DNA from: Diacronema lutheri
Lineage: Eukaryota; Haptophyta; Pavlovophyceae; Pavlovales; Pavlovaceae
Reading direction: 5' to 3'
Length of the DNA stretch: 61,996 bases
Assembly (NCBI GenBank): GCA_019448385.1
Contig: JAGTXO010000088.1
Coordinates: 1-61,996 of the forward strand
Below the pieces are notes generated by a model, which had not been told where the DNA came from, searched no databases, and saw only the letters and a list, made by a program, of their open reading frames with translations. Shown here piece by piece: positions 396 to 52,700 of this stretch (position 1 is its first letter; each line of letters begins with the position of its first letter). The translations under genes were made by a program, and so were the position numbers.

Positions 396-582
396 TCAAC
401 GCCGGCCGCGCTTCGGCCCGCGCGCGCTGCCGCCGCCGGCACTGGCGCTGGCAGCTCCGCGGGCGGGGGTGCGGGCGCGAGAGCCGCCGCCGCCACCGCC
501 GCCGCGCCCGCCGCCGTCGTCGCCACCGCCGTCGCCGCCGCCGCCTCCCCCGCCGTCATCGTCGTCGTCGCCGCCGCCGCCT

Positions 583-615
<33 letters not shown>

Positions 616-3130
616 CCGCCGCCGTCGCCGCTGCCATCGTCGTCGTCGTCGTCGTCGCCCTCGTCGTCGCCCTCGTCGTCGCCGTCGCACTCGTCGTCGC
701 AGTCGTCGCCCTCGCCGTGCACCATGCGCTCCTCACGCTCCCACACCTCGCCGCGCGCCCACCAGGCGAGCACGAGGGCAAAGCGCTCAGGCGTCGACGT
801 GGTGTCGCGCCCGGCCGCGTGCGCCGCCATGTCGTGCACGTCGTAGAAGATGTTGCGCGCGGCGTTGTAGTCGCGGTGCACGGGCTTCTTGCCGCCGTTG
901 CACGCCGGGCAGATGACGAGCGCGTGCACCGTGCGCGTGCCGCCCTTTGCCACGGGCAGGCGCGGGTTCTGCGCGAGCTCCGCGCCGCAGCGCTGCAGCC
1001 TGCCGCCCTTGGCGAGCCGCGGCATCGAGCAGTGCATCGACGTGTACGGCTCGGGCACGAAGACGGCCGCGACGCCGCGCCGCCGCAGCTCGCGCAGCAG
1101 CCCCACCTGGAAGGCGGGCGGCGCGCCCTTGGGCTGCGCGCCCTTGTGGTCGCGCAGCCACTTGCCCACGCACACGAGCAGCCGGTCGCGCGTCACGCCG
1201 TCGACACAGTGCGCCGCGATGAGCGCCTCGGCGACGCGCGCCGCGTTGGACCGCCCGCCGCTGTCGCGCCGCCAGCGCTCCTTCCGGCGCGCCGGCGCGT
1301 CGTACACGTGCTCGGCGGCGCGCTCGCGCACCCGCGCGCTCTCGCGGTGGAAGGCGTGGAACTCGCCCTCGCCGAGCACCTTGGCGCTGTGCGCCTCGCC
1401 AAGCCGCGCCTCGTCCGCCTCCACGCTGAACTCCTCGCCGCGCCCGTCCTTGCGCACGCGCCGCCGCGCCGCGTTGGTCTTGGCCGTCTCGCGCGCAAAG
1501 CCCGCGGCGCGCGCGCGCGCGCGCTGCGTGAACTGCCGCCAGACGGCCGCCCGCCCGACGTGCGCAGAGTAGGTGGTGATGTTGCCCATGTTCGGGTCGG
1601 CCGCGACGACGACCGCCGCCTCGACGTCGATCGCCCGCCGCAGCTCGGAGCCGAGCGCGACGGCGATGCGCCCGTCCGGCCGGCGCCAGCGGTGCAGGAC
1701 GCCCGAGCCGCCGGCCGGCGCCTGCGCCTTCGGCACGAGGACGGTCCCGACGGCGTGCACGGCGACGCCATCTGTCACCACCGACTTGACGGGCTGCCGG
1801 CCCGGGAGCGGCACGCGCGGCAGCGGCGCGAGGCCAACCCACGAGCGCCGCGCGTGCCACGGCAGATCGGCCGGCGGCCGCTCGCGCCCGGCGTAGTCGA
1901 AGACGCGGTTGGAGATGTCGAAGCGCGTCGCAAAGACCGCGTACCTGACGCGCACGTCCGACATCGGCGGGGTGTTGCCGTTTGTGCCTGTCCACTTGAT
2001 CGGCTCGCCATCGTGGTCGCGCAGGTCCAGCGCCTTGAGCCGCGCGCGCAGCTCCTTGCGCTCGTCATCCGAAAGCGTCACCCAGATGGCGCTCGCGGCG
2101 AGGCGCACGTTGCGCGGCACCTGCGCGCAGCGCGCGGCGCGCGAGCGCGCGGGCGCGTGACCAACCTGGCCGCGGGGCGGCGCGCACGGCGGCGGCGCGC
2201 GCGCTTGGGCGCTCGGCGGCGGCAGCGGCAGCCACGCCTCGCGCGCACATTGTGCGTGCGCAGCGGCGCCACATTGTACCGCGGCGGCCGTCCGGTCAGC
2301 TGCGTGTGGATGTGCGCGAGCCGGCAGAGCAGCGCCTGCCCCTCGGCCACGTGCTGCAGGGTGCGGATCTGCACGAGGAAGTAGCGCGTCGTGTGCCGGT
2401 CGTAGTTCCACCTTTTCGTGGGCGTGCACTTGTAGTCGATCTTGTGGAGGACCATGTCGGGCAGGTGGCGGTCGAGCGCGGCGGGGCAGCCGACGCGCGC
2501 GCCCTCCACGTCGCCGCGCAGCAGCCGCTCGCACAGCTCGCGCACGCGCGCGTTTCGCTGCATCTCGGGCAGCGCGACGAGCGCCTCGTCGCGCTCGACT
2601 GCCGCGCGGACGACGTCGCGGAGCAGCCCGTTCACGACGCGCGATGGGTGCATCAGGCACGCGGTGGACACCTGCGTCGCCTCCGCCTCGAGGATCTCCG
2701 TGAGGCCCACCGCGCAGACGGGCTGGACGCCCTCGGCCATCTCGCCGACGGCGCGCGCCGTCGCCGCCTTGGTCTGCGCGGCGGCTTGCTCGGCGGGCTT
2801 GCCTCGCGGCGCTGCACCGTACGTGCTCTCGTCCTTGTGCCAGCCGATGGCCGAGAAGATCGCACGGACGGATCCCTTGTCCATCGTGGTCGACGTGTGC
2901 ACGCTGGTCGACGGGCCGCCCGACGCCGCGCCGACGGCCTGCGCGCTCGCCACCGCAGCCTCGTCGCGCACCACCTTGTTGATGACGCGGTACGCCTGTG
3001 TCGTGAGCCTGTGCACGGCCGCCGCGATGCGCCGCAGCTCCTTCCGCGCACCGGGCTGCGCCGTCACCGCCTGCGGCCCCGCGTTGAGCGTCGAGCGCTT
3101 GACCACGAAGCCCGGGAGCACGCTGCCGCG
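396..3130 (-). CDS. Fanzor (eukaryotic TnpB-type) RNA-guided nuclease module, 3' end of giant gene
   Basis: Two coding parts, about 3130-2249 and 2120-396, join across a 128-nt phase-0 intron to give THN|VPRNVRL. The N-terminal part has the helical region typical of Fanzor (VLPGFVVKRSTL, RLTTQAYRVINKVVRDE). RuvC motifs: I, VVAADPNMGNITTYS (Asp 1596-1598); II, VFVPEPYTSMHCS (Glu 1050-1052); III, HRDYNAARNIF (Asp 870-872). The zinc ribbon supplies Cys in HCSMP, QRCGAE and ICPACNGG. The TnpB/Cas12-like catalytic set is therefore complete. After motif III comes an acidic Asp/Gly/Cys low-complexity tail encoded by GTC/GCC microsatellites (about 480-720) and a short basic end. TnpB/Fanzor proteins cut DNA guided by an RNA from the element's end. 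Fused in frame downstream of a chromodomain. It is eukaryotic, not a bacterial IS605 contaminant, because of the intron and neighbours. Confidence 0.85.
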
Positions 3131-6100
3131 CGTGCGCGCCGTCGCGCCGCCGGCGGCGCGCGCGCTCGGCGCAGCGGGCTCGTCCACGCGCGCGCGCTCG
3201 ACGCCGCGCGCGCGGGGAACGCTCGGCGCGCGCGCGCCCGCGGCGTCGCGCGCGCTCGCGGCGGCACCCGCCGCGGCGCGCTTGCCCGCGGCGCCCGACT
3301 CGCCGTGCGCGCGAAGCGGCGCCGACGCCAATGCCGACGCCGCGCCCGCGCCGCCGCTGCCGCTGCCCGATCCGCCCGCGCGCCGCTTCTGCTCGTCGCG
3401 CGTCTTGCGGAACTGGGCGACGAGGTCGCTGCTCACGTTGGCCTCAGGCTCCCACGTGTCGGCGCTCTCGTCGTAGCCCCGCCACCTGATCCGGAACTGG
3501 AACGTCACCTTCTTGCCCGCCTTGCGGCGCTCGTCGACGACCGCCTCGACCTCGTACGTGCGCGCCTCCTCGTCGACGCTCGCGCCCGCCGCGCTCGCGC
3601 CCGTGTCCGGCCACCCAGCGACCGTGCCGCCCAGCCTCTCGGCGGCCGCGCGCAGCTGCCGCTCGCGCTGGGCGGCCGCGGCGCCTCGCGCGACCAGCGC
3701 GGGCAGCATGCCCGCGCCGCCCGCGAGGCCGTGCGCGCCGACGCTGGCGGTCATCAGCGCGTCGAGGCACGCGAACGTTGCGAGCGCACGCGCGCCATCG
3801 TCGCCGCCGCGCGGCTGCGAGCGCACGACGGGCGATGGCCGCGGCTCCCCCTCGGCCGCGAGCAGCGGCCAGATCGCACTGGCCAGCGCGACGGCATGCG
3901 CGCCGACCGCGACGGCCACGTCCGCGTCGAGCGGCGCAAAGTCGTAGCGCACGAGCGCGGCCGGGCGCGAGTCGTCCGTCGGCCGGTCGGCGACGAGCAG
4001 CCCGACCGGGCGCGGCGGCTCGCCGGACGGCGCGGCGACGGGCACGCAGAGGAGCACGACGAGCAGGCGCGGCGTGCCGCCGAGCAGCGCGCGCGCGGCA
4101 TCCGCCCCGTCGGCTCCGCCGCGCGCGGCCGCGGCGAGCAGCTCGGCCGCGCGCGTCGGGCCCAGCGCCGTGCGCGCGTCCTTGCGCGCGCGTGCGCGGG
4201 CCGTGTACGCGGCGCAGGCGTCGTCGAGCACCGCCGCGCTGGGCGCGGTGCCAGTCGTCGCCCACGCGCGCAGCGCGTCGCGCACCCGCGTGACGATCGC
4301 CTGGTCGACCGCCGCCTCGCCGGCAGCGTGCGCCGGCGCGCACGCCGGCGGTGCGGCGGCAGGCGCGAGCGCGGGCGCGCCGTCGGCGCCGTCAACGCCG
4401 ACGGCGCCGTCGGCGCGCCGCCACGCGAGCTTCGCCTCGATCTGCTGCCGGACGGCGTGGCAGTGCCGGTCGATGCCGCGCGCGTCGTCGAGCGCGGCCA
4501 GCGCGTCCTCAGCGGCGGGACGGCCGCTCGCGTCCGCGACGGCCTGCAGGCAGAGCAGCGCGGCCGCACGCGCGTTGCACGCGCTCTGCGGCTCGGGCGC
4601 GAGCGCGAGCTCGAGCTCGAGCGGCGACGCGCCTCGCGCCGCGGCGATCGCGTCCATCAGCACGTCCAACCGCTGCACCAGCGCCCTGTGCGCGTCGCGC
4701 GGCGCGCCCGTCGACGGCGCGCGCGAGCGCGTCGCCACGAGCCCGAGCGCGCGCGCCGGCGCGCCCGCCGGCGTGTGCAGCACGAGCAGCGCCGCGCCCG
4801 CCAAGCTCGCGTTGCGCGTGACGAGCGCGAAGATGCGCGTCGCCTCGTGCGCGCCCACCGACGCCCAGATCGCAGCGCGATCGGCGTCCGTCTGCGCGTC
4901 GCACAGGTCGCGCACGTCGTCCGGCGCGAGCAGCGCGCCGCCGCCGGCGGAGCGCGCGACGATCGCCCGCGCCTCCGCCACGAAGACGGCCTGCGGCAGG
5001 TCGGCGTGGCGCGCGTCGACGATGGCGCGCGTCGCGTGCACGCCGAGCTCCACGCCGCGGTAGAAGGCGCGCGCGTTGGCCGCGCGCGCGTGCGCCGGCC
5101 GTCCGTCCGCGTTGCGCCTCGCGCGCGCCTGCTTGCTCGTGCGCGCGAGGCCGTCGCGTGGCGGTGGCGGCAGCGTGGCGAGGAAGCGCGCGGCGGGCGG
5201 CGGCGCGCGCACGCCGCGCTGCCGCCGTGCGATGGCCGCGAGCCGCCGGCCCGCCGCGCTGCCGCCCGCGCCGACGTGCTGCCGGCGGCCGAGCGCCGCC
5301 GGTGGCGGCGGCGGCGGCGGCGCGGCGGCGGGCGGCGGCGCGACGGCGGGCGGCGGCGCGGCGGCGGGCGGCGGCGCGGCGGTGGGCGGCGGCGCGGCGG
5401 CGGGCGGCGGCGCGGCGGCGGGCGGCAGCGGCGGCGGCGCGGCGGCGACGGCAGCACCAGTCGGCTTGTCCGCCCACGCACCCGAGACTCTGTCCCAGAC
5501 CTTGCCCCATGGCGCGCGCCCACGCGGCCGCGCGAACTGCCCCGGCTCGAGCGCCTGGCCGCGCTTGGCGGCGGCGGCGGCGGCAGGGGGCGGGCGGCCG
5601 GCGCGCCAGTCGAAGACAGGTGCAACCGTGGCGGCAGGCGCCGAGTGCCGCGCGTCGGTCACAGAGCGCGTGGTGCGCGCGGCGACCGTGGCACGCCTGG
5701 CGGGCGGGCGGTGAGCAGCGCCCGCCGGCGCGCCGGCGGGCGCGGCCGCCTCGAGCCCGGCGGAGGCGCCGCGCTTGCGCTTGCGCGTGCCGCCGCGCGT
5801 GCGCCTGCGCGCGCGCCCGCCGCGCGCCCGTTCGGCCTGCGCGTCGCCAGCCGCGTCGCCGGCCGCGTCGCCGCGCCGCACGTAGACGACCGCGAACGCC
5901 TCCTCGCCGGTCCCGTCGACGCCGCCGCGCGCGCGGCGCAGGACCGACCGCCACTGCAGCCGCCGCGCGCGGCCGGGCTCGCACGCAAACCAGCGCCCAC
6001 CGCGCCTGACGACGGCCACAAAGTCGTCGTCGCGCCGCCCGCGCCGGCGCGTGCGCAGCAGCACGCACTGCACGTCGAGCCAGCCCTCGTGCCAGTCGGC

Positions 6101-28155: not shown

Positions 28156-28505
28156 CGCCATGCTCTGAGGCGCCGCCGCTTTCTAAAAGGGTGTAGGGTG
28201 TAGGGTGTAGGATGCAAAACAAGCCCTCCCCACATTTGGGCCCGACGTCATTCCTTCTTCGAAGCCGTGACGTTACTCACATACGAGTACTTTTACTTAG
28301 TGTAGGATGTATCTATTCTCTAAGTATTTGCATAGTGTAGGGTGTAGGATAAGTACGGTTACGAAAGTCCTACAGGGAGTGAAGGAATGACGCTGTGACG
28401 AAAGAAGGAATGACGTCGGGCCCAGATGTGGGGAGGGCTTGTTTTGCATCCTACACCCTACACCCTACACCCTTTTGAAAAGCGGCGGCGCCTCAGAGCA
28501 TGGCG
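28156..28505. mobile_element. MITE-like element, copy A
   Basis: About 350 bp with terminal inverted repeats of about 103 bp (28156-28259 and 28402-28505) differing at only a few positions. The arms begin CGCCATGCTCTGAGGCGCC and include GGGTGTAGGGTGTAGGGTG, three telomere-like TGTAGGG units, then GCAAAACAAGCCCTCCCC. The inside is AT-rich relative to the surroundings and has no coding potential. No transposase lies inside, so it is non-autonomous. Confidence 0.8.
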
Positions 28506-28706
28506 GCTCGACAGCATGGCGCCTATACAGCATGGCGTCGTCCAGCGTCACGCCGCGTCGTGGTCCTGCCGCTCCTCCGTGGCGCACGGATGGCGCTCCT
28601 CCGTGACGCAGCCGAACGACGTCGCGGCGTCACGGCCCGGGCGCAGTCGCCATCCTGGACGCCACGCTGGACGACGCCATGCTGTCGAGGCGCCATGCTG
28701 TCGAGC
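28506..28706. other. Spacer between inverted MITE copies, itself an inverted repeat
   Basis: The left side contains GACAGCATGGCG-type repeats and GTCGTCCAGCGT; the right side carries the reverse complement (ACGCTGGACGAC, CGCCATGCTGTC). The whole 28156-29042 block is thus one large imperfect palindrome with a unique centre near 28600. Confidence 0.75.
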
Positions 28707-29042
28707 CGCCATGCTCCGAGGCGCCGCCGCTTTCTAAAAGGGTGTAGGGTGTAGGGTGTAGGATGCAAAACAAGCCCTCCCCACATTTGGGCCCGACGTC
28801 ATTCCTTCTTTCGTCACAGCGTCATTCCTTCTCCCCCCTATGGGACTTTCATAACCGTACTTATCCTACACCCTACACTATGCAAATACCTAGAGAATAG
28901 ATACATCCTACACTAAGTAAAGGTACTCGTATGTGAGTAACGTCACGGCTTCGAAGAAGGAATGACGTCGGGCCCAAATGTGGGGAGGGCTTGTTTTGCA
29001 TCCTACACCCTACACCCTACACCCTTTTAGAAAGCGGCGCCG
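28707..29042. mobile_element. MITE-like element, copy B (inverted relative to A)
   Basis: Same terminal repeats as copy A and the internal sequence of A in reverse complement (for example TACTTATCCTACACCCTAC and ACTCGTATGTGAGTAACGTC). The right end has lost one GGC unit. Small substitutions and a short insertion (CCCCCCTATGGG region) separate A and B, so duplication is recent but not immediate. Confidence 0.8.
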
Positions 29043-36222: not shown

Positions 36223-37268
36223 GCTCGCCGCCTCGTCGCCCGCACCCGCCGCGAGCCGTGGGCGAGCTGGTGCGCACGTCGGGCGCGTGCGTGCCTGCGT
36301 GGTGTGCGCCAGTTGTGCCCGCACCCGGGAGCGGCAGGACGCCATCGCGCCAAAGCGGGTGCCGTCCCCACTCGAAGTGCTCTTGTGGGGGACGGCGCTC
36401 CGACGCCGTGGCTCACGTGCAGCGGGCACGCGGGATGGCCGCAGTCCGCCACTGCCGCGCTGCCAGCAGGGGTCGACGGCGACGCGCCCCTTCGCGGTGG
36501 GGCGCTCGGTGGCTGGGCGTGTCCGTTTGCTCGGCTGGGAGTGGGCTCACATACACACTCGGCAGGGCCCCGTCTGAACCAGTCTGATCGTATCGACTCA
36601 TTGCTCCTGTCGGCTCTCGCCCCGGACCGTACGGTTCTCCCCTGAGGCCCGGACCCGCGTGCCCGATCACCCGGACTCTGGCGCAGAATGGCGTCGCGGC
36701 GTCGCGCAGTGTGAAAAGCGCTTTCCCGGGTCCTCTTTGCGGGGGACGTTCGGCGGAGGAGGCGACACAGCGGCGCGCACCGCTCTTACCGCGCGAAGCG
36801 TGGGTCTGCGGATAGCGCGGGCGCCGCAGCTTCGTGCGCTCCAGTCCACAAGACCGCGATAGCCGAATCGCATACCGCACGTCGGAGATGGCGGACGACC
36901 GTGCGCCAGACCACGCGGCAGGTGAGGGAGCTGCCTGCCCATCGCAAGGCGCGTCCGCACGCCAGCGCATGCAGCCTCCGCGCAGTTTGCGCTCCAGTTT
37001 GTCAACGCCTCGACTTCCTCGCCCGAGGCAGAGGGCTGCATGCTGGCGCGCAGGGCCGTGCGACGGCCACGGCCTACGCCTGCTGCGCCGCGCCCGCGCA
37101 TGTCGGCCTGGCTGCCTGCTGGATGTTGCTCCCATCGCGCGTGGGGCGCGTGCGAGCGCACGCGCAGATTGAGCCTCCGCTTTCGCTCCTCCGCGCCCGT
37201 GCGCCTGCTCTCCGCCGCTGCGCCCCGCGCGACGTGCGTCACTTAGCCGCGCACCCGCGCCGTGCGTA
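36223..37268. other. Intergenic region between eL22 and the INO80-like gene
   Basis: About 1 kb with several chance open frames but no recognisable protein or RNA. Presumably the eL22 3' end and the promoter and 5' leader of the INO80-like gene; an untranslated first exon cannot be excluded. Confidence 0.4.
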
Positions 37269-40200
37269 TTGAACGCGGTCTTCGCGCACGCGCCGCGCCG
37301 TCCGCCGCACATCTCGCACCGCGCCTCGCACACGCTCCTCGCGCGCGCAGGAGGTCACGTGCCGTCACAACCATCAGCCATATCTCGGGCCCTGCTCCAA
37401 CAGCTCGCCCAGCCGATCCCATCAGATGCTACAGGGGGCGTGCCGCCGGCCGCGTTGACACATTCCGGCCACGCGCAATTGCCGTCGGCGACTGCCGCCG
37501 CGGCGTGCGCGCAGCAGTACGGGGTGGCGCAGGCGTTTGCGCAGGCGCAGGCGCAGGCGCAGGCGCAGCAGCAGGCGCAGGCGCAGGCGCAGGCGCAGGC
37601 GCAGGCGCAGCAGCAGGCGCAGGCGCAGGCGCAGGCGCAGCAGCAGGCGCAGCAGCAGGCGCAGCAGCGGGCGCAGCTGCAGGCGCAGCTGCAGGCGCAG
37701 GCGCAGCAGCGGGCGCGGTTGCAGGCGCAGGCGCAGCAGCAGGCGCAGCAGCAGGCGCAGCAGCAGGCGCAGCAGCAGGCGCAGCACGCGCAAGCCCTGC
37801 ACACCCACAGCCAGATGCTCGCTCACGCCACGCACGCCGCCGGCGCGCAGCCATCGCCGACGGTAACGGCTGCGCCCGGCCTGGCCGAACAAGCGGGCAG
37901 GGGCGCATGTGACTACACGCAGATGCAGATGGCGCAAGCGGCGGCTAAGCTGCAGGCGCAAATGCAAGCCGCCGCCGCCGCGCACCGTGCGCAGCTTGCG
38001 GCACAGCAGAGCGCGCATGCCGTCGCCGCGGCAGCCGTCGACGGCGCGCAACCGCAGCCGCAGCAGCCGCGCCAGAGTTTTGACTGTCATTACGAGCAGG
38101 TCGCGTGTCCGGCAGTTTCGTTCGGCGCGGCAAAGCCGCTCTCTGCGACTGCGCACGAGCGAACGGGCGCGAGCGCGCCGTTGGCGCACGCACACGTGAA
38201 CGCGGCGAACGGTAGCTGTGGCGCGGCGGGCGGCGCGCCGGCCGCGCCGGGCGGCGACTTTGCGCAATTCGCCGCGCAGCGCCAAGCAGCGCAGCAGTCG
38301 CCGATGCAGCACGCGATGGCAGCCGGCGCGTGCGCGCTCGGCGGCGCGCCGCCGGGCGGAGCATCTGTCGGTGCCGGTGCTGGGTGCACGTATGCGACGG
38401 CCCAGGCAATGTTACAGCGCATACAAGCGGCACAGCAGCAGCAGGCGATGCAGCAGCAGCAGGCGGCGCACGGCTGGTGCGATCAGGCAGCGGCGAATGG
38501 CGGCGGATGCTCCGTGGCGGCGAGCGCGGCGGCGGCCAGCGCGGACGCCGTCGGTGGCTGCCAGGGCAACGACGCTGTAGCTCCGCATACGAGCGGTGCC
38601 TCACCTGCGGCAGGCCTCGCGTATGCTGGCCGCGCACAGTCTCCATACCATGCGCAGGGACACGCCGTGCAGTACCACCTCGTGCAGCCGCCGTTGCACG
38701 CCGTTCACAGCTCGCATGCCGAGCTCGCCGCGCAGCAGCATCAGCAGCAGCGCGCTCTGGCGGCCGCGGCGTCCGGCGCGAGCGCGGCAGCCGGCGGCTG
38801 CAGCTGCGCGGTCGGTGCGCAGCCTCTCGCCGTCGGCGCAAGCGCCGCCCCGCTCTTCGCGTGGAAGCGCCCATACGAGGAGGGGACGGACAGCTCGGCC
38901 ATTGCCGCCGCTGGCCTCGACGCGCGCGGGCGAGGGCGTGGGCGCGGCGGCGGTGGATCGGGCGGCGACGGGCGTGCCGTCAAGAAGGCGCGCGGTGGCG
39001 GGATGACGATGATGGGCGCATGCGCGCCGGGGCCGACGACTGCGCCGATGGGTGCCGCCTGCGCCGGCGGATGCGCGCCGGCGTATGGCGGCGTGTGCTG
39101 CGCGGGAGGCGGCGGCTGTGTGGCCGGCGCGGGCGGCGCAAGCGGCGCAGGCGGCGGGGGCGACGGCGGCGGCGGTGGTGGCGCGTGCGCGACGAATCGC
39201 GTGCTCTCCCTGCTTGGCCCAGGCTCCGCTGGCTCCGCCATGCTGAGCATTTTTGGCGTCCCGATGCTCGTGCCTCCGAAATGGGCCGACCTCGACTTTG
39301 CCCAGCCAGCTGTGATGGGCAAGTTGGAGCTGCGCGCGCGCAAGGCTCGCGAGGCGAAGCAGCGCCTGCAGCACGCGATTCCCCTCACCGGACCGGGCTC
39401 GGAGGTTGAGCTCGACCTGGCCGGGCGCGTGATCCCGCCCGCGCCGCCCGCGCCGCCCGCCGACGGCGCCGCCTCGGGGGTCTCGCCGCTCGGTCTCGCG
39501 CGAGATGCGGCGCTTGCGCTCGCGGACGCGGGCGGCACGGCCGTCGGCGTTGGTCCGTACGATGGCGGCATGGCCGGCGCGCACGATCCGGGGCAGGAGG
39601 TGGAACTGCAGCGCCGGCGGCTGTGGCAGGCGCTCGCACGGCGTGACGTGCCGCGCGTCTCGCGCCAGCAGCAACAGGCGTCGCGCGACCGGCTGCACAA
39701 CAGCCGGCGCGTCGCGCAGGCGTGCCAGGGCCGAGTCCGGGCGCGCGTGCGCGAGTGCGCGCGCCGCGCCCTGCAGGCAGCCGCGCGCGCCAAGCGTATC
39801 GCGCGCGACGTCCTCCTCGGCGCGCCGGCGCCGAAGTCGGCGGTGCCGGCCAAGCGCGCGCCCGCTCCGCCGCGCGACGTGTGCCCCTTCGAGCCGCTCT
39901 TCTTCTTCTCGCAAGAGCGCAAGCGCGGCGACGACGAGGGCGCGGATCGGTCGAGGCTGCACGCCTTCCTCGGCGCTCAGCTGCTCGCGCTCGAACTCGG
40001 CTCGCATCTCGCTCTCGCGCGCGCCAGCGCCACGACCGCCCGGCCGTGGCGCGGCGCCGGCGTCGGCGTCGGCGCGCGCGCCGTCGGCGTGGCCGCGCCT
40101 GCTGGCGGCGGCGGAGCGGCGGAAGCAGCGGGTACGCCCGCGCCCACGGCCGTGCCCGCGCTCACGCCGACGGCGCTCGCGGCGAGCGCGCTCGGCTCCA

Positions 40201-43200
40201 ACGCGGCCTCTGTGGCGCGCCAGCTGCTGCAGCTGGGCGGCGCGGGCGACGAGAACGGGCGCGAGCTTGCGGGCGACGTGGCGCGCATGGCGAAGCTCAG
40301 CGCCCTCGCGCCCCTCCGCGCGCGCGCCGCGTACGAGGCTCGGCTAGCCGAGATCGCCTCGGCTGGCGGGCTGAGCGCGCGTGCGGGCGCGGGCGCCGCG
40401 CCGTCGCGCTCGCCGCCGCTCGACGCGGCGGCGATCGCGGCGGTCGAGCGCGCGCTCAGCTCGGCGAAGGGTTACGACGTGGCTGCACTTCGGACAGCGT
40501 GGCGTGCGGCCGCGCCCGCCGGCGGCGCGGCCGACGTCTCGCCGGACGCGCAGCCGGGCGGTCCGGACGCGCAGCCGGGCGGTCCGGACGCGCAGCCGGG
40601 CGGTCCGGACGCGGAGGCAGCGATCGCGGAGCATTTCTCCGGTTCGCTGCGTCCGTTTGAACATGCGGGCGTGCGCTGGTTGCTGCACCTGTGGGACGCG
40701 GCCGTGCCGTGCGCCGTCGCGGATGAAGTCGGGGTCGTCGAGCAGATCGCCGCGTTCCTCTGCGCGCTGCGCCTCGGCGCGCGCGGCGGCGCCGTCGGCC
40801 CGTCGGGCCCCGCGCTGCTCGTCGCGCCGCTGGCCGACTGCCGCGCGTGGTTGCATCAGCTGCGCCAGCTCTGCCCAGCGCTGCGCGTGCTGCCATACTG
40901 TGGCGACGCGAGCGCGCGCGCCGCGCTGCGCGCGCGCCTCTTCGGCGCCGCGCACTGCTCGGCGGGTGCGCTGGGCGGCGCGCAGCTCGCGGCCATGTGC
41001 GCCCTGATCGGCGACGCGCCGCCGGTGCACTGCGTCCTCGCCCCGTACGCAGCGCTCGCGGAGGACGAGGCCGCGCTCGCTGCCGTGCCGTGGTCCGTCG
41101 CGGTGTGCGACGAGCTGCACGTGCAGACCTCCGCGCATCGCGCGCCCGTCCTCCGCTTACGCACCGCGCGGCGCGTGCTTGTCGCGCGGCGCGCGCCGTT
41201 GAGAGCGCCGGCCGCACGGCTCGTCGCGTTCGCGCAGAGCATGGCGGCGCTCACGGACGGCGGCGGGCCGTCGGCTGCCGCCCTCCTCTCGGAGGGCGAG
41301 CGGCTGCGCCTTGTGCGCGCTCTCAGCCCGCTCGTCCTCGCGCGCTCCACCGCCGACCTCGCCGTCGAGCTGCAGCTGCCGTCGATTGTACGCGTGCGCT
41401 GCGTGCCGTGCGCGGCGCAGGCGGAGGCGTACGCGCGCGCGGTGCGCGACGCGCGGCGCGCGGCGCGCGCGCCGGACGCGGCGCTCGGCGCGGCGGCGCA
41501 GGCCGCGCTGCAGCGCGCGTGCGTGCATCCGCGCCTCGGCGCGCCCTTTCTGCTTGGCGCGCGGCTGCGCGCCGAGCGCGCGGCCGACGCGGGCTTCGCC
41601 GGCGCGCTTGCGCTCGTGCGCGCGCCGCGCGCACGCGCGCTCGGCGGCGCGGGCGGCGCGGGCGGCGCGCCCGAGTGGCTCGCGCGCGCCGTCGCGTCGG
41701 GCGCGATTGGCGTCGCCGTCGACCAGTCCGTCGGCGCGCCGATGCAGCAGTCGTGGCTTGATGCGTGGGCGGAGGGCGCCTCGCAGCACGCAGAGGCAGG
41801 CGGCGCGCTCGTGTCCGGCGTCGAGCCCGCGCCCGCCGGCAGCGAGGCGCGCGTTGCGTGCGAGACGCGCTCGGCGCGCAGACCGCCGCCAAGTACAGCG
41901 ACGATCGCGCTCGTGCTGCGCATGTGCGAGAGCCCCCTCGTCCGCTACGGCCGCGCCGCGCCGCGCGCCTCGCTTGAGCATGTCGGCAGCGCGGGCGAGC
42001 GCGCGCTGCTGCCGGCCGGCGCACCGTACAGCGGCGCGGCGCGCGCGGTCGAGCTGGACGAGGGCGTGAGCGCGATACCGCCATGGGTGCCCAACATTTG
42101 GACGACACGGCACATCGTCGCATCGGTCGCGGGCACGCCGCGGCCGCCCGACGAGCCGCGCGCGCGCGTCTCGGCGCACGCAGTCGCCGCGTCGGCGGTC
42201 GTAGCCGACGGCGCGCCGGTCGCCGAGCCGGTCGCCGCGTCCGCCGATCGTGTCGCGCTCGCGCACGGGCGGCGTGGCGAGCTCACGCATGACCGCGGCG
42301 CCTTCTCTTGGCTCCCATTCTGCGGGCTTGGTGCGTCTGACGTGGCGGCGCGCGCGCGCGCGTCGCGCGCGCTCGGCGCGCTTGTCGCCATGCTCGACGA
42401 GGGGTGCCTCCCGCTCGTCCGACCGCGCGAGATGGACCCGCTTGCCGCGCGCGCGCCCGCGGTCGCGGTCACGGCTGGCGCGGGCGCGACCGCGGATGGC
42501 GCGGGTCCTTCGGCCGCGGGCGCCGGCGCGCAGCGTGCCGGCGTGCCGGCGAGGCAGGGCGCGCGGCCGGCGGGCGCGGCGAGCACGGCCGCCGCCGCGG
42601 CCGCCGCGGCCGCTGCGGACGCGGCGGCCCAGTCAGAGGCGCGCGCGTGGCTGCGCTGCGCGCTGCGCGTCTGCCGCGCGCACGCGCCGCCGCGCGCGCC
42701 GGCGCTCGCGCTGCAGCTCTGCGGCGCGCAACCATGCCTCCTTGCCGGACGGCGCACGACGTGGAGTGAGCTTCTCCCGACGGCGGGCGGCGCCGGCGCA
42801 GCGGAGGGCGCGGCCGCAGTCGCGGCGGCCGCCGCGGCCGCGCTCGGCATGGGCGGATCGGACGGCTGGCCCGCGCCGCGCGTCGTCGCCGCGCCGATCG
42901 CACCCGCCGTCTCGGCGGCGCCGCGGCTTTTCGGCCGGCGCGGCGGCCTTTGGCCTTCGGCACGCGCCGCCGTGCTCGCGCACGCACGCGCGCACTGCCC
43001 GGCTGCGAGCCGCGTCGCGCCGCACAGCGCGTGGTCCATGGCGCCGTATCGCGCGCGCGCGCACCGGCCCGCGTCGAGCGGCGCGCTCGCGCGCGTGCCC
43101 GCCGCGTTGCGCATCGCGCTCAGCCGCGCGCTGCCGCCCGACTCGCACGCCGCCCGGCTGTGGATCCCGCCGCTCGGCGCGCTGCTCTCGGGCGCGGCCA

Positions 43201-44817
43201 AGCTGCGCGGCCTCGACGCTCTTCTCGCGCAGAGGCTTCTCGTACGCTGCGCGCGCGCGCGAGGCCCGCCCCGCGCCGTAGCCGCGCGCGCCGTCGCCGC
43301 GCGGCGCGCGTTGACCGTGCCGACAGCTCGTGCTCACGAGCAGTCCGTCTACTCGCGGCGCGCGCCCTTGCCCTGCCCTCTCCTTTCCTTCGCATGCGCG
43401 CGTCGCTCCGCGCCGCGCGCCGTGCGCGCAGCCGACGCGCGCGCACGTCGTCATCTGCGTGAGAACCGCGGAGTGCGCCGCGGCCGTGTGCGCGCTGCTG
43501 TTGCACCGCGCGCTGCCGCACTGCACGATGCACCTCGCGCCGCGCGGCGCCGAGCCGCAGCCGCCCGTCGGCAAGGCTGGCGTGGCCAAGGGCTCGAGCA
43601 AGGGCAAGGCCGCCGCAGTCGCCGCGGCCGTGCAGGCGGCGGCTGCGGCGGCCGAGGCCGCCTCCGCCACCGCAGCGCGGGCGGCGGCTGAGGTGGCCGC
43701 GAGTGGCACAGCGCGCGGATTTGCGGCCGACGCCGCTTTCGCGCACGTGCCGGCGGAGAGCGCGGCCGAGACGGCGGCTGCGTTTGAAGCCGCCAGGTGA
43801 GAGCGCTGTGCTGCTGCCCTTCACCCGCAGCTGACTGTCTGCATGGCGCTGTGCATGGCGCTGCCTCACGCATGGCGCTGCCTGCATGCACTCACGCATG
43901 GCGCTGCCTGCATGCACTCACGCATGGCGCTGCCTGCACGCACTCACGCATGGCGCTGCCTGCATGCACTCACGCATGGCGCTGCCTGCATGCACTCACG
44001 CATGGCGCTGCCTGCATGCACTCACGCATGGCGCTGCCTGCATGCACTCACGGCATGGCGCTGCCTGCATGCACTGCCTGCACGCCCATCTCAGCTCATG
44101 CCGTTCGCCTCTCCCCATTCCGTTTCAAGCGGCTCGATGGGCACGCCAGCCCCGCGTGACTCGCCGCGCATTACCATCCCTGCTGCAGAGTATGCCCTCA
44201 CACTCACGCACCGGCGCGCGCGCACATGCACCGTCCTCGCCCTGCGCTTTGCCGCGCCCGCGCCTGCCCGCGCAGCGCGATCGATCTGCCGTGCGCCTGC
44301 GTCCTCCTCGCGCCGCACGGCTCGGGGATGCCGCCGCGCCTGCGCTCGGTCGACGCGCTCATCTTCTTCGAGCTGAGGCCCGCAGCCGACGACTGCGCGC
44401 GCGCCGCGTGGCTCGACGCGCTGCTCGGCCCGAGCAAGGGGCGGCCGCCGGTGCGCGGCGCTGGCGCGGCGCGCTGCGGCACAGCGGCACGGCGCACGTT
44501 GCGCCGCGTCTCATCACAGCTGCCGCCGCGGCCTTTTGGCATTGCACTCACAGCAAGGGGCGCGTCCTGCGCCGTGCCTGTCCGTGCCCGCATCTCCGAT
44601 GCGTGTCCGCCCTCAGGTGCTGCTCTACCAGCTCGAGCTGGCGGGCACGCTCGACGAGAGGCTCGGCGAGTACCTTGCAAACGACAGCGCCGTGTCCGCT
44701 CCCGGCGCGCGCGGCGCGATCCGGCCTCAGGGCGGGCTCGAGATCGGCGAGAGCAGATCGTTGGCGCAGCGCGCCGAGCAGCTCGCCGCGCTCGTTGCCG
44801 AAGAGCTCGGCGTTTGA
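37269..44817 (+). CDS. INO80-type SNF2 family protein with degenerate ATPase motifs
   Basis: Four exons: 37269-43241, 43432-43796, 44276-44450 and 44617-44817 (about 2,237 residues); all junction phases agree (0, 2, 0). The N-terminal half is Gln/Ala-rich. A DBINO/HSA-like helix follows (LWQALARRDVPRVSRQQQQ ... RAKRIARDVL). The SNF2 N-lobe starts SLRPFEHAGVRWLLHLWD, and LLVAPLADCRAWLHQL with LRVLPYCGDAS matches INO80. Walker A reads ADEVGVVEQI instead of DEMGLGKT; motif II is CDELH; the LTGTP motif is replaced by VLVARRAP. The C-lobe survives in outline: GAAKLRGLDALL, HVVICVRTAECAAAV, VDALIFFEL, then VLLYQLELAGTLDERL, but the R-x-H-R-x-G-Q arginine motif is gone. Probably a non-hydrolysing scaffold relative of INO80. 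The exact N-terminus is uncertain. Confidence 0.75.
37530..37795 (+). repeat. CAGGCG/CAGCAG repeat encoding Ala-Gln tract
   Basis: Hexanucleotide GCGCAG and trinucleotide CAG units encode a long (AQ)n and QQ-rich stretch in the N-terminus of the INO80-like protein. Such tracts are prone to length change. Confidence 0.9.
40545..40612 (+). repeat. 21-nt coding repeat (DAQPGGP)n
   Basis: Three near-identical 21-nt units encode DAQPGGP repeats in the linker just before the SNF2 N-lobe of the INO80-like protein. Confidence 0.85.
43843..44090. repeat. 26-bp minisatellite inside an intron
   Basis: About eight copies of a 26-bp unit containing CATGGCGCTGCCTGCATGCA, with unit starts at 43871, 43897, 43923 and onward; the last copies are degenerate. 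It lies inside the 479-nt third-exon acceptor intron (43797-44275), which explains that intron's unusual length. Confidence 0.9.
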
Positions 44818-44947: not shown

Positions 44948-47900
44948 ATGACCGTGGACACACTCGACGCCGGGAGGCCACGCCCCTTCGTGCAGGCCGA
45001 GACGGAGGAGGAGGCGCGCGCGCGGCGCATGCATAACATGGCCGTGCGCATGAACACCGAGCCTCCGCGCGGCCACGCCAACCTCACGCAGATCGTGATG
45101 TGGCGCCGTTGCATACCGCGCGACCTCAAGCTTTCCGTCGCAGAGCTGATCGCGCGCGGCGCGCTCACGTGGGACGACGTCTTCCAGGATGGCAATGTCG
45201 TGTGGGCGATCCGCCCGATCATTGGGTGGCGCTTGTACGCGTCGCGCGCGCGCGCCTTGACTCTTGTGCCCTCCTGCGCATGCCGCTTGCACCGCGCCGA
45301 TCCAGCCTGATCTTCGCAGTGCAGTGCATGCAGGCGACGTGCGGCGCCGGACGGCAACCGGCCGCGCGCGTACCAAGCTGCGCGTGCAACGCGCGCGCGA
45401 CGCGCGCGCGCGCGCGAGGGTCGCGTGTGCGCGCTCTGAATCGTGCGTTCGCGCCGGCCGCCTGCCCAACCTGCGTATGTATTCCTTCATGCCCGCTGCC
45501 TTTTCGCCGCAACGTGGGCCGCCGTGAATCGATCGCCGCGCGCTTGCTGCGACCGCTGCCTCTCCGCCACACTGCGGACCGTTGTCGATCGTGCGCTGCG
45601 CGTTTGCCTCGACCGCCACGCAGCCTTCCCGAGGCGCAGGCCTATCTCGTCAAAGTGCAGCGCGCGTTCGAGGACATGGCCAAGGCCAAGGCGGAGGGCG
45701 TTGCAAACCTCATGCCGACGCACCGGATGGATGAGGTGCAGGCGGAGCATGTGCGCGCATGGGAGGCTGAGCTCGAAGCCGAGTGTGACGCGCACGACAA
45801 GGCGGACGCCGAGCGGACGGCGCAGGTGCAGCGCGCGCTCGCGGACGGTACGATCGAGGCGTTGATGCACGACCCGAGGTTGCGCAGCATCCGCCAGCGC
45901 TACGACGCGCGCTATGACGCCGAGCGGAAGGTCGACGCCGCCCTCGAGCTCGCACGCATGCCCGCCGCGCTGCACCGGGCGGTCGCGCACCAGCGCCAGC
46001 ACGCGCACTGCGCCGACCGGCAGCGGGTGACGATGCAAGACCTTGCCGTCGCGCACCTCAAGTGGCAGCCTGCGCGCGAGCAGCTCGTGCAGATGGCGCT
46101 CGGCGAACCCATCGCACTCACCGATGAGCAGCGCGCGCGGCGGCCGCTCGGCGCACAGCACGACGAGGACCACGACAGCGCGGCCGGCGGCGCGAACGAC
46201 GACACGGCCGGCGCTGGCGCCGATGCGGCCGTCGGCGCCGAGGGCCGCGTGGCTTGCGGTTCTGCTGAGGCGGCGCCAGCTGGCGCGGCCGACGGCGCGG
46301 CCACAGGCGGCGGCGGCGGCGGCGGCGGCAGCTCGCTCTTTGCCGAGCTCGACCTCGTGATGGCCGCGGCCGGCGTGGACGGGCTGACGCCGTATGAGGT
46401 GGCGCGCGCGGCGCAGATCAAGGCGAATCGGCTCAAGATGGTGCAGCTCGGCCTCGTCTCACCAGCCGAGCCGGGTGGCTCACTCCTCGTCGGCCAGCCC
46501 GTCAACGCCAAGCGCACCCGAGCGCAGCTGCACACTGGCGAGCGGCGCACAGCGGCGGAGGCGCGCAATGCGGCGCGTGAGCTTTTCACCGAGCTGCGCC
46601 GCAGCGGGCGGCCGACGGGCAAGCCGGTCAAGTACACGCCAAGCGTGTTCCCAAGCCGTGCCGCTGCGCCGTCGGACGACTCTGACGGCAACGGCTCAAG
46701 CGAGTCCGACTCGGAGGGCGGCGACGGCTCGGAGGCGGCCGCGCGGCGGCGCGGCACGCGCAGCTCGAGCGACGGCGATGGGACGAGCAGCTCGAGCGAC
46801 GGCGAATCAGACGACGACTCGAGCGAAGGTTCGGATGACAGCGCGGCGCAGCCGCGCCGCGGCGCGCGCGCCACGCGCATCGGCGGCGCGTCGGCGCGCA
46901 AGCGCGGTGCGGCCGCCTGCGCGACGTCCTCGGCGGCGCGCGCCGCCGCGGCGGCGGCGGGCGGCGGCGCGCGCGCGCGCGGCGGCGGCTCGGAGCGCAA
47001 GCCGGTGCTCGGCCGAGCACTGCAGTGCCCGCATCCCGGCTGCGCGTGGACCTTTGATATCAAGCACGTTCTCGAGGTGCGCGCCTGCGCGCGCGCGCGC
47101 GCGCAATGAGCCGACTGACGTCGCACGCGCGCGCGCGCGAGCGCGCCAAAGGGGATGCGCGACCTGTCGTCCGCCTTCTCGGCGCGGCACACCGAGAGCG
47201 CCCGCTGCGGCGCGTGGGGACGCTGACCTCTGTTGCTCGACCGACCTCCGCCCTTTGCGCCCAACCGCGTCGCGCGTTCACGGCCTCGTGCGGTGCGCCG
47301 CAGGAGCACATCCGCACGCACACGGGCGAGAAACCGTTCGCGTGCACCGTTGCGGGCTGTGGCCAGGCCTTTGCCAAATCGGGTGACCTGACGGTGCGCC
47401 GCAGCAGGGCCGGCGCGCGAGGCGGCTATGCACTGCAGCGCACGGGGCGCCTGCCCTCGTCGCCGACCACACGCCTCTCGCGCCCGCCCGCCGCGTGCCC
47501 ACACCGTGCAACGCGGGCGCGCGCGCGTAATGAGCCGGCGGACGACGCACGCGCGCGCGCGCGAGCGCGCCAAAGGGGATGCGCGACCTGTCGTCCGCCT
47601 TCTCGGCGCGGCACACCGAGAGCGCCCGCTGCGGCGCGTGGGGACGCTGACCGCTCTTGCTCGACCGACCTCCGCCCTTTGCGCCCAACCGCATCGCGCG
47701 TTCACGGCCTCGTGCGGTGCGCCGCAGACGCACATCCGCACGCACACGGGCGAGAAACCGTTCGCGTGCACCGTTGCGGGCTGCGGCCAGGCCTTTGCCA
47801 CATCGAGCCACCTGACGGTGCGCCGCAGCAGGGCCGGCGCGCGAGGCGGCTATGCACTGCAGCGCACGGGGCGCCTGCCCTCGTCGCCGACCACACGCCT

Positions 47901-49687
47901 CTCGCGCCCGCCCGCCGCGTGCCCACAACGTGCAACGCGGGCGCGCGCGCGTAATGAGCCGGCGGACGACGCACGCGCGCGCGCGCGAGCGCGCCAAAGG
48001 GGATGCGCGACCAGCCGTCCGCCTTCTCGGCGCGGCACACCGAGAGCGCCCGCTGCGGCGCGTGGGGACGCTGACCGCTCTTGCTCGACCGACCTCCGCC
48101 CTTTGCGCCCAACCGCGTCGCGCGTTCACGGCCTCGTGCGGTGCGCCGCAGGAGCACATCCGCACGCACACGGGCGAGAAACCGTTCGCGTGCACCGTTG
48201 CGGGCTGTGGCCAGGCCTTTGCCAAATCGGGTGACCTGACGGTGCGCCGCAGCAGGGCCGGCGCGCGAGGCGGCTATGCACTGCAGCGCACGGGGCGCCT
48301 GCCCTCGTCGCCGACCACACGCCTCTCGCGCCCGCCCGCCGCGTGCCCACACCGTGCAACGCGGGCGCGCGCGCGTAATGAGCCGGCGGACGACGCACGC
48401 GCGCGCGCGCGAGCGCGCCAAAGGGGATGCGCGACCTGTCGTCCGCCTTCTCGGCGCGGCACACCGAGAGCGCCCGCTGCGGCGCGTGGGGACGCTGACC
48501 GCTCTTGCTCGACCGACCTCCGCCCTTTGCGCCCAACCGCATCGCGCGTTCACGGCCTCGTGCGGTGCGCCGCAGAAGCACATCCGCACGCACACGGGCG
48601 AGAAACCGTTCGCGTGCACCGTTGCGGGCTGCGGCCAGGCCTTTGCCCAATCGAGCCACCTGACGGTGCGCCGCAGCAGGGCCGGCGCGCGAGGCGGCTA
48701 TGCACTGCAGCGCACGGGGCGCCTGCCCTCGTCGCCGACCACACGCCTCTCGCGCCCGCCCGCCGCGTGCCCACAACGTGCAACGCGGGCGCGCGCGCGT
48801 AATGAGCCGGCGGACGACGCACGCGCGCGCGCGCGCGCGCGCCAAAGGGGATGCGCGACCAGCCGTCCGCCTTCTCGGCGCGGCACACCGAGAGCGCCCG
48901 CTGCGGCGCGTGGGGACGCTGACCGCTCTTGCTCGACCGACCTCCGCCCTTTGCGCCCAACCGCATCGCGCGCCCACGGCCTCGTGCGGTGCGCCGCAGA
49001 AGCACATCCGCACGCACACGCGCGAGAAACCGTTCGCGTGCACCGTTGCGGGCTGCGGCCAGGCCTTTGCCACATCGAGCCACCTGACGGTGCGCCGCAG
49101 CAGGGCCGGCGCGCGAGGCGGCTATGCACTGCAGCGCACGGGGCGCCTGCCCTCGTCGCCGACCACACGCCTCTCGCGCCCGCCCGCCGCGTGCCCACAC
49201 CGTGCAACGCGGGCGCGCGCGCGTAATGAGCCGGCGGACGACGCACGCGCGCGCGCGCGAGCGCGCCAAAGGGGATGCGCGACCTGTCGTCCGCCTTCTC
49301 GGCGCGGCACACCGAGAGCGCCCGCTGCGGCGCGTGGGGACGCTGACCGCTCTTGCTCGACCGACCTCCGCCCTTTGCGCCCAACCGCATCGCGCGTTCA
49401 CGGCCTCGTGCGGTGCGCCGCAGACGCACATCCGCACGCACACGGGCGAGAAACCGTTCGCGTGCACCGTTGCGGGCTGCGGCCAGGCCTTTGCCACATC
49501 GAGCCACCTGACGGTGCGCCGCAGCAGGGCCGGCGCGCGAGGCGGCTTTGCACTGCAGCGCACGGGGCGCCTGCCCTCGTCGCCGACCACACGCCTCTCG
49601 CGCCCGCCCGCCGCGTGCCCACTTCGTCAACACCTCCGCCCGCCGCCGTCGCAGGCGCATGTCCGCCGCAAGCATACTGCGCGCTAG
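44948..49687 (+). CDS. C2H2 zinc-finger protein with exon-per-finger array
   Basis: Exons: 44948-45234; 45624-47076; 47304-47393; 47728-47817; 48152-48241; 48576-48665; 49000-49089; 49424-49513; 49655-49687. Every junction is phase-consistent, giving about 770 residues. The unique N-terminal part is charged and helical with a Ser/Asp-rich stretch ([20 protein letters not shown]); no known domain. The first finger starts [17 protein letters not shown]; each 90-nt exon then supplies [13 protein letters not shown] plus the next finger's TVAGCGQAF and helix; the last exon gives HVRRKH and a stop. Splicing recreates perfect C-x4-C-x12-H-x3-H fingers (the last with H-x4-H), seven in all. Each finger's helix position 6 comes from the next exon. 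Probably a nuclear DNA-binding protein. It ends 34 bp from the convergent P4-ATPase stop. Confidence 0.85.
47100..49625 (+). repeat. Tandem 424-bp exon-intron units of the zinc-finger gene
   Basis: Exon starts 47304, 47728, 48152, 48576, 49000 and 49424 are exactly 424 bp apart. Introns are nearly identical. Two marker sites alternate: introns 1, 3 and 5 have CACACCGTGC and ACCTGTCGTCC; introns 2 and 4 have CACAACGTGC and ACCAGCCGTCC. This shows an 848-bp two-finger higher-order unit. The part-unit before the first repeated exon starts near 47100. Confidence 0.95.
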
Positions 49688-49721: not shown

Positions 49722-52700
49722 CTACCGAATCTTTGTTGCCTTCTCGGGCGCGAGCCGCTGCGAGAACACTTTGCCCACCCACACGGGCACGCACGAGACA
49801 GCAGTGATGGCGGACACTTTCCACAGGAACTCGACGGAGAGCATGAAGGGCAGATCAAATGTGCTCGTGCCGAGCAGCGTCGGCGACGAGAGCGCGAAGA
49901 TCGAGCCGGCGTAGACGAGGAGCGTGAGCACCTGCCGGCGGATGCGACGCGCGCGCACGCCTGCCGTCAGCGCGCGCGGCGCGCGCCGAGCCTCGGGGTG
50001 CCCCTGGCACGCCTGCCAACGCGCGCACCTCGCACGCGATCATGATCGTATGCCACCGCTTCACCTCGACGGCGACCATGACGAGCTCCGTGAGAATGAG
50101 CGACGTGAAGCTGATGCCGACGACGTGCACGAGCCGCTTGTCAAAGAGGAAGATCGCGCCGAGCATGATCACACCGCCCTGGTAGATCGCCTTCCATGTC
50201 CAGATGAGAAAGGTCTTGAGCGAGAGATGCCGCCGCTTCTGCAGCTCCTTGTAGAGCTCGGGGTACTTGAGCGCGTTCTCTTGCGAGATATCCTGCGCGC
50301 ACGGCCACACGGCGCGCGGGCGCGCCGTGTGAGCGACACACCTCCGCTGCGGGCGGCCGCATGGGCGCGCGCGCGCGCGCGCAGCGCACCTCGTCGAGCA
50401 CGAGCGAGAAGACGGGGCCGGTGGTGAAGATGGTGGCGTACCCAACGGTAAGGAAGCCATTGTACACGGCAATCGACGCGAAGAAGAAGAGCGACGAGAA
50501 GACGGCCTGGATCATCGCGATGATGAGGCCGCGGTGGATGACGAACTGTGCGAGAAGTGACGAGCGCAAATAGGCGTTGCGTCCGTGCCACAGTACGAGG
50601 CGCTGCAGGTGCGAGAATTCGAGCAACGAGAAGTCGGCGGCCATGCTCGCCTGCTTGCCCTCCTTGCCCTCGATGCCAATGCCGACGTGCGCCTCGCGGA
50701 TCATCGGGATGTCGTTGCCGCCGTCGCCTATCGCCGCCGTGCATTTGCCCGTGTGCGTCCGGATCAGCCGGACGATCTGGCCCTTCTGCGTGGGCGAGCA
50801 GCGGCAGCAGACGACGGCGGGCGCGGCGCACGCCACCTCGAGGAAGAGCACCTGGTGGTTCGCAAGGCACAACTCGAGCGAGGTGCCATCGACGAGTAGG
50901 CAAGGCGCATGCATTACTCCCTGTGGGTAGCCACGCAACTTTTGCAAGGCCTCGAGCGCCGTGCGCGCGACGAGCGGGTAGAAGGCGCCGCCGCGCGGCA
51001 CGAGCGACGCGTTCTGCGCAATTACCATCGCCGTCTCGAGCTTGTCGCCCGTGAGCATCCACGTGCGCACGTTTGCATTGCGCAGCTTCTCCAGTGTCTG
51101 CTGCACGTGCGGCTGCAAGAGGTCCTCGACTGCAGTCAGACAAAGGAGCTCCATCTCGACCTCAAGTCGCTCCACGCAGCCACGCACGCCCTGGTCGCGC
51201 AGCGCCGCCGACTTTGCCAGCCGCGCCGCCTGCAGCTCAGCCTCGAACTGGCGGTAGGCGGGTTCCGAGATGCGCCTGCGCGCGACGACGAGGGTGCGAA
51301 GTCCCTCACGCGCCAAGTTGCCCACCTCCTCCTCCAGCCAGTAGGAGCGAGCGACCTTCTCCGCCATCACCACGTCCGCGCCCTTGGCGTAGAAGCTGAG
51401 CTCGCCCGTCTGCCGCGAGCGCAGCACGATGCCCATGCGCTTGCTCTCAGAGCTAAACGGGAACTGGGGAGGTGGGAAGGGGGTTTGGGGGGGGGGGGGG
51501 GGGGGGGGGGTAAGGGGGCGCTAGGTTCGAGGAGCACATCGTGGCGCGTGCTGGGTCAGGAGCGGGCGCTGGGTGTGGCGGGTTTGGGACGCGTACGCGC
51601 GGACAAAAGCGCGCCGTAGCCATGATCCCAACAGCCAAAAGGCGAGACAGCACATTCGCGCAGGCACGCGCGCGCGCGCAGAGCGTCGCGGCCGTGCGGC
51701 CAAGCCACGCACCGCGCGCGCTGCGGCAGCGTGTGCGCACCTCCTGCAAAATCTCGTACGCGAGCTCGGCGCCGTCGGACACGCGGCGCAGCACAATGTG
51801 CCGTAGGTCGCGTGCGATGAGCAGCAGGCCGCACGAGGCTGCAAACATGACGAGCGCCAGCTCGTCGGGCGAGGCGCCCTGGTACGAATGGCCTCCCGCC
51901 ACTGGCGAGACGTTGTGACAGAGGGCGATGGCGAGGAGGGCGTCGCGCGCCTGCGCGGCGAGCGGCGGCGGCGCCTCGCCCGCCGCCTCGGCAAGCCACG
52001 CATCGCGGAGCAGACCGCTGACTTCGTCAAGCCCACTCGACGTCAGGCAGTGATTTCCGAGGTGAAGTTTCCGGAAGACCATCTCATTGCGAGTGAGCGT
52101 GCCCGTCTTGTCGGTGAGGAGGTATTCGATGCCACCGAGCTCCTCGGAGATGGAGGACGAGCGCACGATCGCGCCCTTCATCCCCTCGTCCTGAAACATG
52201 TGCAGCGCGTAGGTGACTTTGGCCATCTCGAGTGAGACGCGTAGTGAAATTGGCACGATGGAGGAGAAGAGGAGAACAAAGCGCGAGAAGGCGAGGGCCT
52301 TGAGCACGAGAGAGGGCGAGTGTCCGGGGGGCAGCAGGACCATGAGCGCGGCGAGCGACACGGTGAAGCAGAAGAGAATCTTTGCGAGGAAATTAATCTG
52401 CAGGTCGAGCCCCGCCACCTTGGTCGGGGTCGCTGAGGCGTTCATCATACAACGGGTCTTTGGGAGGGGGAAGGGGGAAAGAGGGGGGGGAGGGGGGGGG
52501 GGGGGGGGGGGGGGGGGTCAAGGATACAGGAGGCGTGCGGGGGTGCAGGGATCAGGGGCGAGCTGGGCTGTGTGTGCACAGAGGGGCGGTGCTGGGCTCG
52601 GGCGTCTACCTGCAGCCGAGCAAGGCACGCGCGCCATGCCGCGCGATGCCGCGCGCACCTCGTCGCCCGTGTAGACCACCGCGCCGATCGCCGTGCCCGA

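Follow-up and report, generated by a model that had tools for sequence, protein, structure and literature searches.

A chromodomain ahead of a divergent Fanzor-like protein at the C-terminus of a predicted giant protein in a 31-kb mobile element of Diacronema lutheri

The closest described systems are the Fanzor1 proteins of eukaryotic transposons, which, according to the available sections of two studies (PMC3627910, PMC10432273), share with the protein discussed here the D-E-D triad, a glutamate just ahead of the first zinc-finger cysteine, a TNB-like C-terminus and the location in a mobile element. Unlike Fanzor1, the protein in our window (the whole stretch of 61,996 nucleotides that was analysed) forms the C-terminal part of a giant frame with a chromodomain ahead of it, and has DPN and CSMP in place of DPG and CxxC (PMC3627910, PMC10432273, same sections). 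None of the transposon groups named in the accessible text of PMC3627910 (Helitron, Mariner, IS4-like, Sola, MuDr) was recognised in the window element. PpFz1 is likewise a Fanzor carrying an extra domain, FRI, by which it contacts a second molecule; as far as the available part of that report goes, FRI is a RuvC insertion that binds cyclophilin, whereas the window encodes a predicted histone-mark reader ahead of the Fanzor (PMC11423790).

Chromodomains are described as accessory domains on the integrases of LTR retrotransposons, which therefore also have a chromodomain in a mobile-element polyprotein (PMC6338049, in the part available). The partner there is an integrase, whereas the frames scanned in the window element gave no integrase match and the neighbour is a Fanzor. 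On LTR integrases, chromodomains have a targeting role. The preliminary description of this DNA, made from the sequence alone, had stated that chromodomains were not known on Fanzor; in agreement with this, the literature searched, with one large Fanzor survey outside its scope, contained no chromodomain-Fanzor or chromodomain-TnpB fusion, and nothing in it brought Fanzor together with PIF1 or YqaJ. The sections available of PMC10432273, PMC10711439 and PMC11423790 make no mention of a chromodomain.

In the window, PF00385 matches the chromodomain with E 4.4e-13 (49.4 bits, cut-off 25.1) in a 487-aa piece (3709-2249) and with E 5.7e-12 in the whole 4,513-aa frame, and the known-structure chromodomains of CDYL, CDY1 and HP1 align with it. 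All three cage aromatics are kept (Y 3554-3556, W 3482-3484, Y 3473-3475), at positions that we take to be those of the cage in HP1. Judged by these residues, the domain is apparently competent for methyl-histone reading and would bind histones. The earlier wording “canonical chromodomain” is thus borne out by the profile match and the three aromatics, and the profile searches proposed along with it placed both PF00385 and PF07282 above their cut-offs.

Chromodomain and Fanzor N-terminus lie in a single minus-strand frame without a stop over 4,513 codons (15619-2081), against 34, 19, 9, 19 and 47 stops in the other five frames of this interval. The predicted protein exceeds 4,500 aa and contains, in this order, a RecE/YqaJ-type exonuclease, a conserved upstream region, the chromodomain, a flexible linker and the Fanzor, so that the chromodomain-Fanzor pair is the C-terminus of a larger predicted protein in a mobile element (Table 1). 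The exonuclease domain matches phrog_434 with E 1e-16, and TIGR03033 (E 1.4e-6) and PF09588 (E 0.0018) each below their own cut-off. Between the end of the chromodomain and the start of the conserved Fanzor part (3094) we measured 102 residues, not the approximately 85 codons given before. An in-frame ATG is present at 3709, ahead of the chromodomain, and the next one follows only at 2884, 70 codons into the conserved Fanzor part. The “same uninterrupted frame” of the preliminary description holds for the chromodomain and the Fanzor N-terminus, but not for the RuvC half, which is in another frame and is reached via a putative intron. We infer one polypeptide with both domains. AlphaFold, run without relatives on two pieces, returned poor models (mean pLDDT 36 and 44).

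For the Fanzor part, PF07282 was found on the RuvC/TNB half with E 1.7e-6 (28.5 bits versus a curated cut-off of 26.3), and BLASTP of this half against L062, a Fanzor from the same genome, gave E 5e-9 and aligned D, E, YTS, Cys and RD. L062 (C1:153300-155300; PF07282 E 4.3e-10) belongs to a second family of more canonical Fanzors, which have DPG and, as the first zinc-finger pair, CSKC; it has approximately twenty relatives (84-100% identity). The three acidic RuvC residues, which had been described as kept, could be located as D (1596-1598), E (1050-1052) and D (870-872, within RD) and aligned with L062, as could the retained RD-NAARNI. Together with [TS][TS] (YTS) and RD, this triad follows the Bao-Jurka order of the Fanzor RuvC motif (PMC3627910, available sections). 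Six residues separate E from C (1029-1031), a spacing identical in L062; an alternative glutamate six residues ahead of the zinc finger is described in the accessible part of PMC10711439.

Four zinc-ribbon cysteines remain (1029, 987, 909 and 900). The second CxxC is intact (CPAC), but the first reads CSMP, and the zinc ribbon is therefore altered despite its four cysteines; a Cys 14 residues past CSMP may stand in for the missing one. The earlier statement that the Fanzor keeps its zinc ribbon is consequently right for the second CxxC, with PF07282 above cut-off, and not for the first. At RuvC-I the protein has DPN where Fanzors usually have DPG; for this reason we describe it as Fanzor-like and divergent. 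The DPG of RuvC-I is usual rather than catalytic. It is reported to be near exclusive in Fanzors (PMC10711439, in the text available). In a PDB sequence search, no Fanzor there matched the window protein or L062. For the Fanzor part as a whole, RNA-guided cleavage would be the expected activity.

Table 1. Features of the window, with positions on the forward strand.
Feature	Position	Strand	Remark
Mobile element, ~31.0 kb	31038-1	-	5' end at about 31038; 3' end lies a few bases past the contig start
Imperfect palindrome, 878 bp	28171-29042	.	90.9% self-complementary; repeated 104-bp pieces
PIF1 helicase gene	27674-25801	-	PF05970 E 1e-24 and 1.7e-15
Ubiquitin-hydrolase (UCH) protease frame	24167-22674	-	PF00443 E 4.3e-8
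1,345-codon open frame	19316-15282	-	no Pfam match
Giant open frame up to intron donor	15619-2249	-	predicted coding
YqaJ/RecE-type exonuclease domain	7255-6845	-	inside giant frame
Upstream region, function not assigned	4141-3683	-	common to C74 relative, 37% identity, E 4.3e-4 (genome search)
Chromodomain	3556-3404	-	PF00385, cage aromatics
Gly/Ala/Ser/Arg-rich linker	3403-3095	-	without ATG
Fanzor N-terminal part	3094-2249	-	34% identity to C74 over 279 columns, E 7e-37
GT-AG intron, 128 bp, phase 0	2248-2121	-	inferred; joins Fanzor N-terminal part to RuvC half
Fanzor RuvC/TNB half with acidic, Gly-rich tail	2120-399	-	PF07282, L062 match
Fanzor stop codon	396-398	-	
3' non-coding region, expected guide-RNA site	395-1	-	position only
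SNF2/DBINO remodeller	37173-43688	+	host-like, beside element
Phospholipid-translocating ATPase	50144-51520	-	host-like, beside element
TLDc protein	53127-56930	+	host-like, beside element
Ankyrin-repeat protein	57077-58693	-	host-like, beside element

The 128-bp intron is supported by comparison with a diverged relative on contig C74, which continues through the intron point with no intron and whose sequence fits the 2248 donor; an alternative donor 24 bases further upstream is likewise in phase. A 2-base insertion in one copy of the element (copy4) falls inside the intron; the giant frame stays open despite its indels across a set of ten copies picked for long frames.

C74 has one 4,321-codon frame that contains the upstream region, the Fanzor N-terminus (40% identity in the genome search) and the RuvC half (29% to L062, E 1.6e-6). 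Its linker is Pro/Ala/Gly-rich, and neither Pfam nor phmmer detected a chromodomain in the stretch between upstream region and Fanzor N-terminus (L064, L065). Since C74 has the fusion without a linker chromodomain, the fusion of giant protein and Fanzor is common to both families, and the chromodomain was either gained in the window's family or lost in C74. As far as these sequences go, C74 supports the giant-protein fusion and the intron, and the chromodomain would be a feature of the window family's linker. The same arrangement of upstream region, Fanzor N-terminus and RuvC half is found in a 1,468-codon frame of C82, and upstream region plus Fanzor N-terminus in a 2,241-codon frame of C53; the frame at C9:1954304 is interrupted, and there are further fragments in the genome. 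At C70:103621-104385, one 819-codon frame contains a diverged chromodomain next to the upstream region, with no Fanzor adjoining among the matches listed, which is a weak absence. This locus is possibly a further family of such elements, and it suggests that the chromodomain is not very recent. A copy on C88 has the chromodomain, and a copy on C10 is without part of it.

Outside this genome, two protein-database searches with 7,995 scored candidates each, among which low-complexity words may crowd, found no relative (the first at E <= 0.01), and a further search gave a single match among 3,209 scored (P0001, 99% identical). No relative was confirmed in viral contigs, and none was found in phages.

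The window is the start of contig C26 in the genome searched (43,492,796 bases, 103 contigs); the published Diacronema lutheri assembly is given as 43,502,671 bp in 103 contigs with 22.9% repetitive sequence, and three RNA-seq libraries went into its annotation (PMC8379373, available part). Ten copies of the element are 99.0-99.95% identical to the window across 19.4 kb. In all four copies with an aligned 5' end (three complete sequences and a fourth compared at both ends), homology stops at window position 31040/31041, and the element is therefore approximately 31.0 kb long, although the 5' end was not found in a fifth copy (copy7) and did not show at two of nine further places compared (L056, L059). 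The ends read TATA(C/G)GG and GACCATC. Immediately ahead of TATA(C/G)GG stands TA at every 5' junction (12/12, window included), and 17 of the 18 3' junctions are complete, 16 continuing with TATAC and one with TAACG. Such flanks (nTA|element|TATAC) suggest that the target-adjacent motif includes TA. BLAST of the two 1.5-kb ends revealed no terminal inverted repeat. The contig's opening 133 bases are found again at no fewer than 40 scored places (257 candidates), and a 24-base piece of the chromodomain has 237 genomic matches with up to two mismatches, as compared to 0 for the reversed control; if all of these were full-length, they would add up to about 7.3 Mb of 43.5 Mb, which is an upper bound, as many copies are short-framed.

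Besides the giant frame, the element carries a PIF1 gene, which is probably spliced because it is spread over two frames, and a UCH protease. The 1,345-codon frame is perhaps not a true reading frame, because SNPs among copies fall on its codon positions 1/2/3 in the ratio 17/22/7 and position 3 is the least variable. The palindrome near the 5' end may act as a signal for replication or processing. The frames scanned gave no recognisable transposase. Inspection by eye had raised the possibility of C48/ULP1-like proteases and of a ssDNA-binding domain; these were dropped, as neither Pfam nor PDB sequence searches bore them out.

Helitrons are characterised by an HUH Rep domain joined to a helicase of PIF1 type, and Polintons by large size, a cysteine protease, PolB, an RVE integrase, a capsid and long terminal inverted repeats. 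The window element resembles the former in its PIF1 helicase and Polinton/Maverick elements in its size and cysteine protease. No match to Rep (HUH), PolB, RVE integrase or capsid was obtained in the frames scanned, where split exons could hide Rep. An assignment to Helitrons is unsupported: the ends differ from the 5' TC and 3' CTRR of Helitron1 (PMC3627910, available sections). Polinton/Maverick is likewise unsupported, with no terminal inverted repeat in the BLAST of the two ends. The 31-kb element fits no class tested.

In the genome search with the chromodomain, 150 of 260 candidates were scored, four of which are other genes and at least 146 belong to the element family. Frames reach at least 4,000 codons in 102 of these 146 copies and stay below 3,000 in 31. 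With the C74 Fanzor N-terminus as query, at least 141 matches were listed, 135 of them from the window's family; in 100 of 100 paired copies the frame is equally long around chromodomain and Fanzor N-terminus, and 35 of the 135 had no partner among the chromodomain matches listed. The 206 variable sites between 2300 and 15619 in ten copies are spread over the codon positions as 67/71/68, and in exon 1 the window and the copy L063 differ by 4 synonymous and 15 non-synonymous codons, in exon 2 by 6 and 8. Purifying selection since the spread is evident neither from the codon-position distribution nor from the window-L063 changes; conservation shows between families only. Heterochromatin targeting might be expected to leave the copies clustered, which was not seen: 60 copies, on 15 contigs whose length is known, have 6 gaps below 60 kb (12.3 expected) and 14 below 100 kb (18.8 expected), both against a control that ignores element length. 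Short gaps are, if anything, rarer than expected.

Taken as a whole, we give roughly even odds (about 0.5) to the reading that this is a giant DNA transposon which spread recently in the genome and whose giant protein ends in a chromodomain-linked Fanzor with chromatin-held cutting. The C-terminal Fanzor would bind RNA from the element's 3' end, and the loaded nuclease would cut sites matching the guide, such as the empty donor site or its sister, with repair of the cut copying the element by analogy with TnpB. Copying by cut and repair is described for TnpB and suggested for Fanzors (PMC10432273, in the sections available). The chromodomain in the linker would hold the nuclease on methylated-H3 nucleosomes, the likeliest targets being silenced element copies and their neighbourhood. 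A tentative extension, which we consider rather doubtful, is that such elements make up a superfamily of giant DNA transposons of eukaryotes, as yet unclassified, with a polyprotein of approximately 5,000 aa ending in an RNA-guided nuclease, one family having become chromatin-dependent via its linker reader. Guide match and chromatin state would then jointly set where the element cuts and copies itself.

The main alternative to chromatin-held cutting accepts the giant protein as real and lets its domains work apart: the chromodomain would serve the upstream part, for example by integration targeting or anchoring, and the Fanzor would be released by a protease or transcribed separately. We regard this as possible, if on the unlikely side. 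It would fit the conservation of upstream region and Fanzor, but not chromodomain, between families, the C70 locus with its chromodomain and upstream region in 819 codons and no adjoining Fanzor among the matches listed, and the presence of at least one protease domain (UCH) in the element; on the other hand, an ordinary separate start of the Fanzor would find no ATG before residue ~70 of the conserved part, and in C74, C82 and C53, too, a single frame joins the Fanzor to the upstream region.

A Fanzor that no longer cuts, being degenerate or re-purposed as an RNA-guided binding module to which the chromodomain adds a binding or silencing role, seems unlikely to us: DPN for DPG, the change of the first CxxC to CSMP and the non-synonymous changes among copies point in this direction, but three acidic residues and RD-NAARNI are kept in alignment with L062 and the Pfam TNB profile is still above cut-off. 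Least probable is that two neighbouring genes merely appear fused by the rarity of stops in GC-rich DNA. GC is 77-83% across the first 6 kb of the window, which makes long frames common, and frames of 1,787 and 1,345 codons are also present. However, over its 4,513 codons the giant frame has no stop where the other five frames have 9 to 47, frames of at least 4,000 codons are retained by 102 of the 146 copies scored, the indels of the ten copies picked for long frames keep the frame, and the fusion recurs in C74, C82 and C53.

In eukaryotes, RNA-guided nucleases are hindered by chromatin. A methyl-histone reader naturally joined to such a nuclease would, if true, be an evolved answer to chromatin and a usable part. 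It also opens a test of whether elements aim their own nuclease at silenced copies, for which this genome, with families that have the chromodomain and families that lack it, offers a ready comparison. A guide RNA would be expected from the 3' non-coding region, whose predicted fold did not exceed that of shuffles (z -0.93, 15 of 100 shuffles equally good); Rfam gave no match in the window at the gathering threshold.

Around the element, several further observations were made. Nine contigs (C1, C5, C6, C10, C12, C26, C29, C80 and C83) begin with the element, approximately 3.4 kb before the chromodomain, and the assembly therefore seems to break at its 3' end. Three copies (L042, L054, L058) have 100-146 bp of 5' flank in common (91-98% alike) and different 3' flanks, reflecting either insertion next to a different repeat or carry-over of DNA from upstream. 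Beside the element lie host-like genes, among them the SNF2/DBINO remodeller, which we take to be INO80-like, and a tandem array of about six copies of a 424-bp unit, 95-98% alike, occupies window positions 47088-49631, outside the element.
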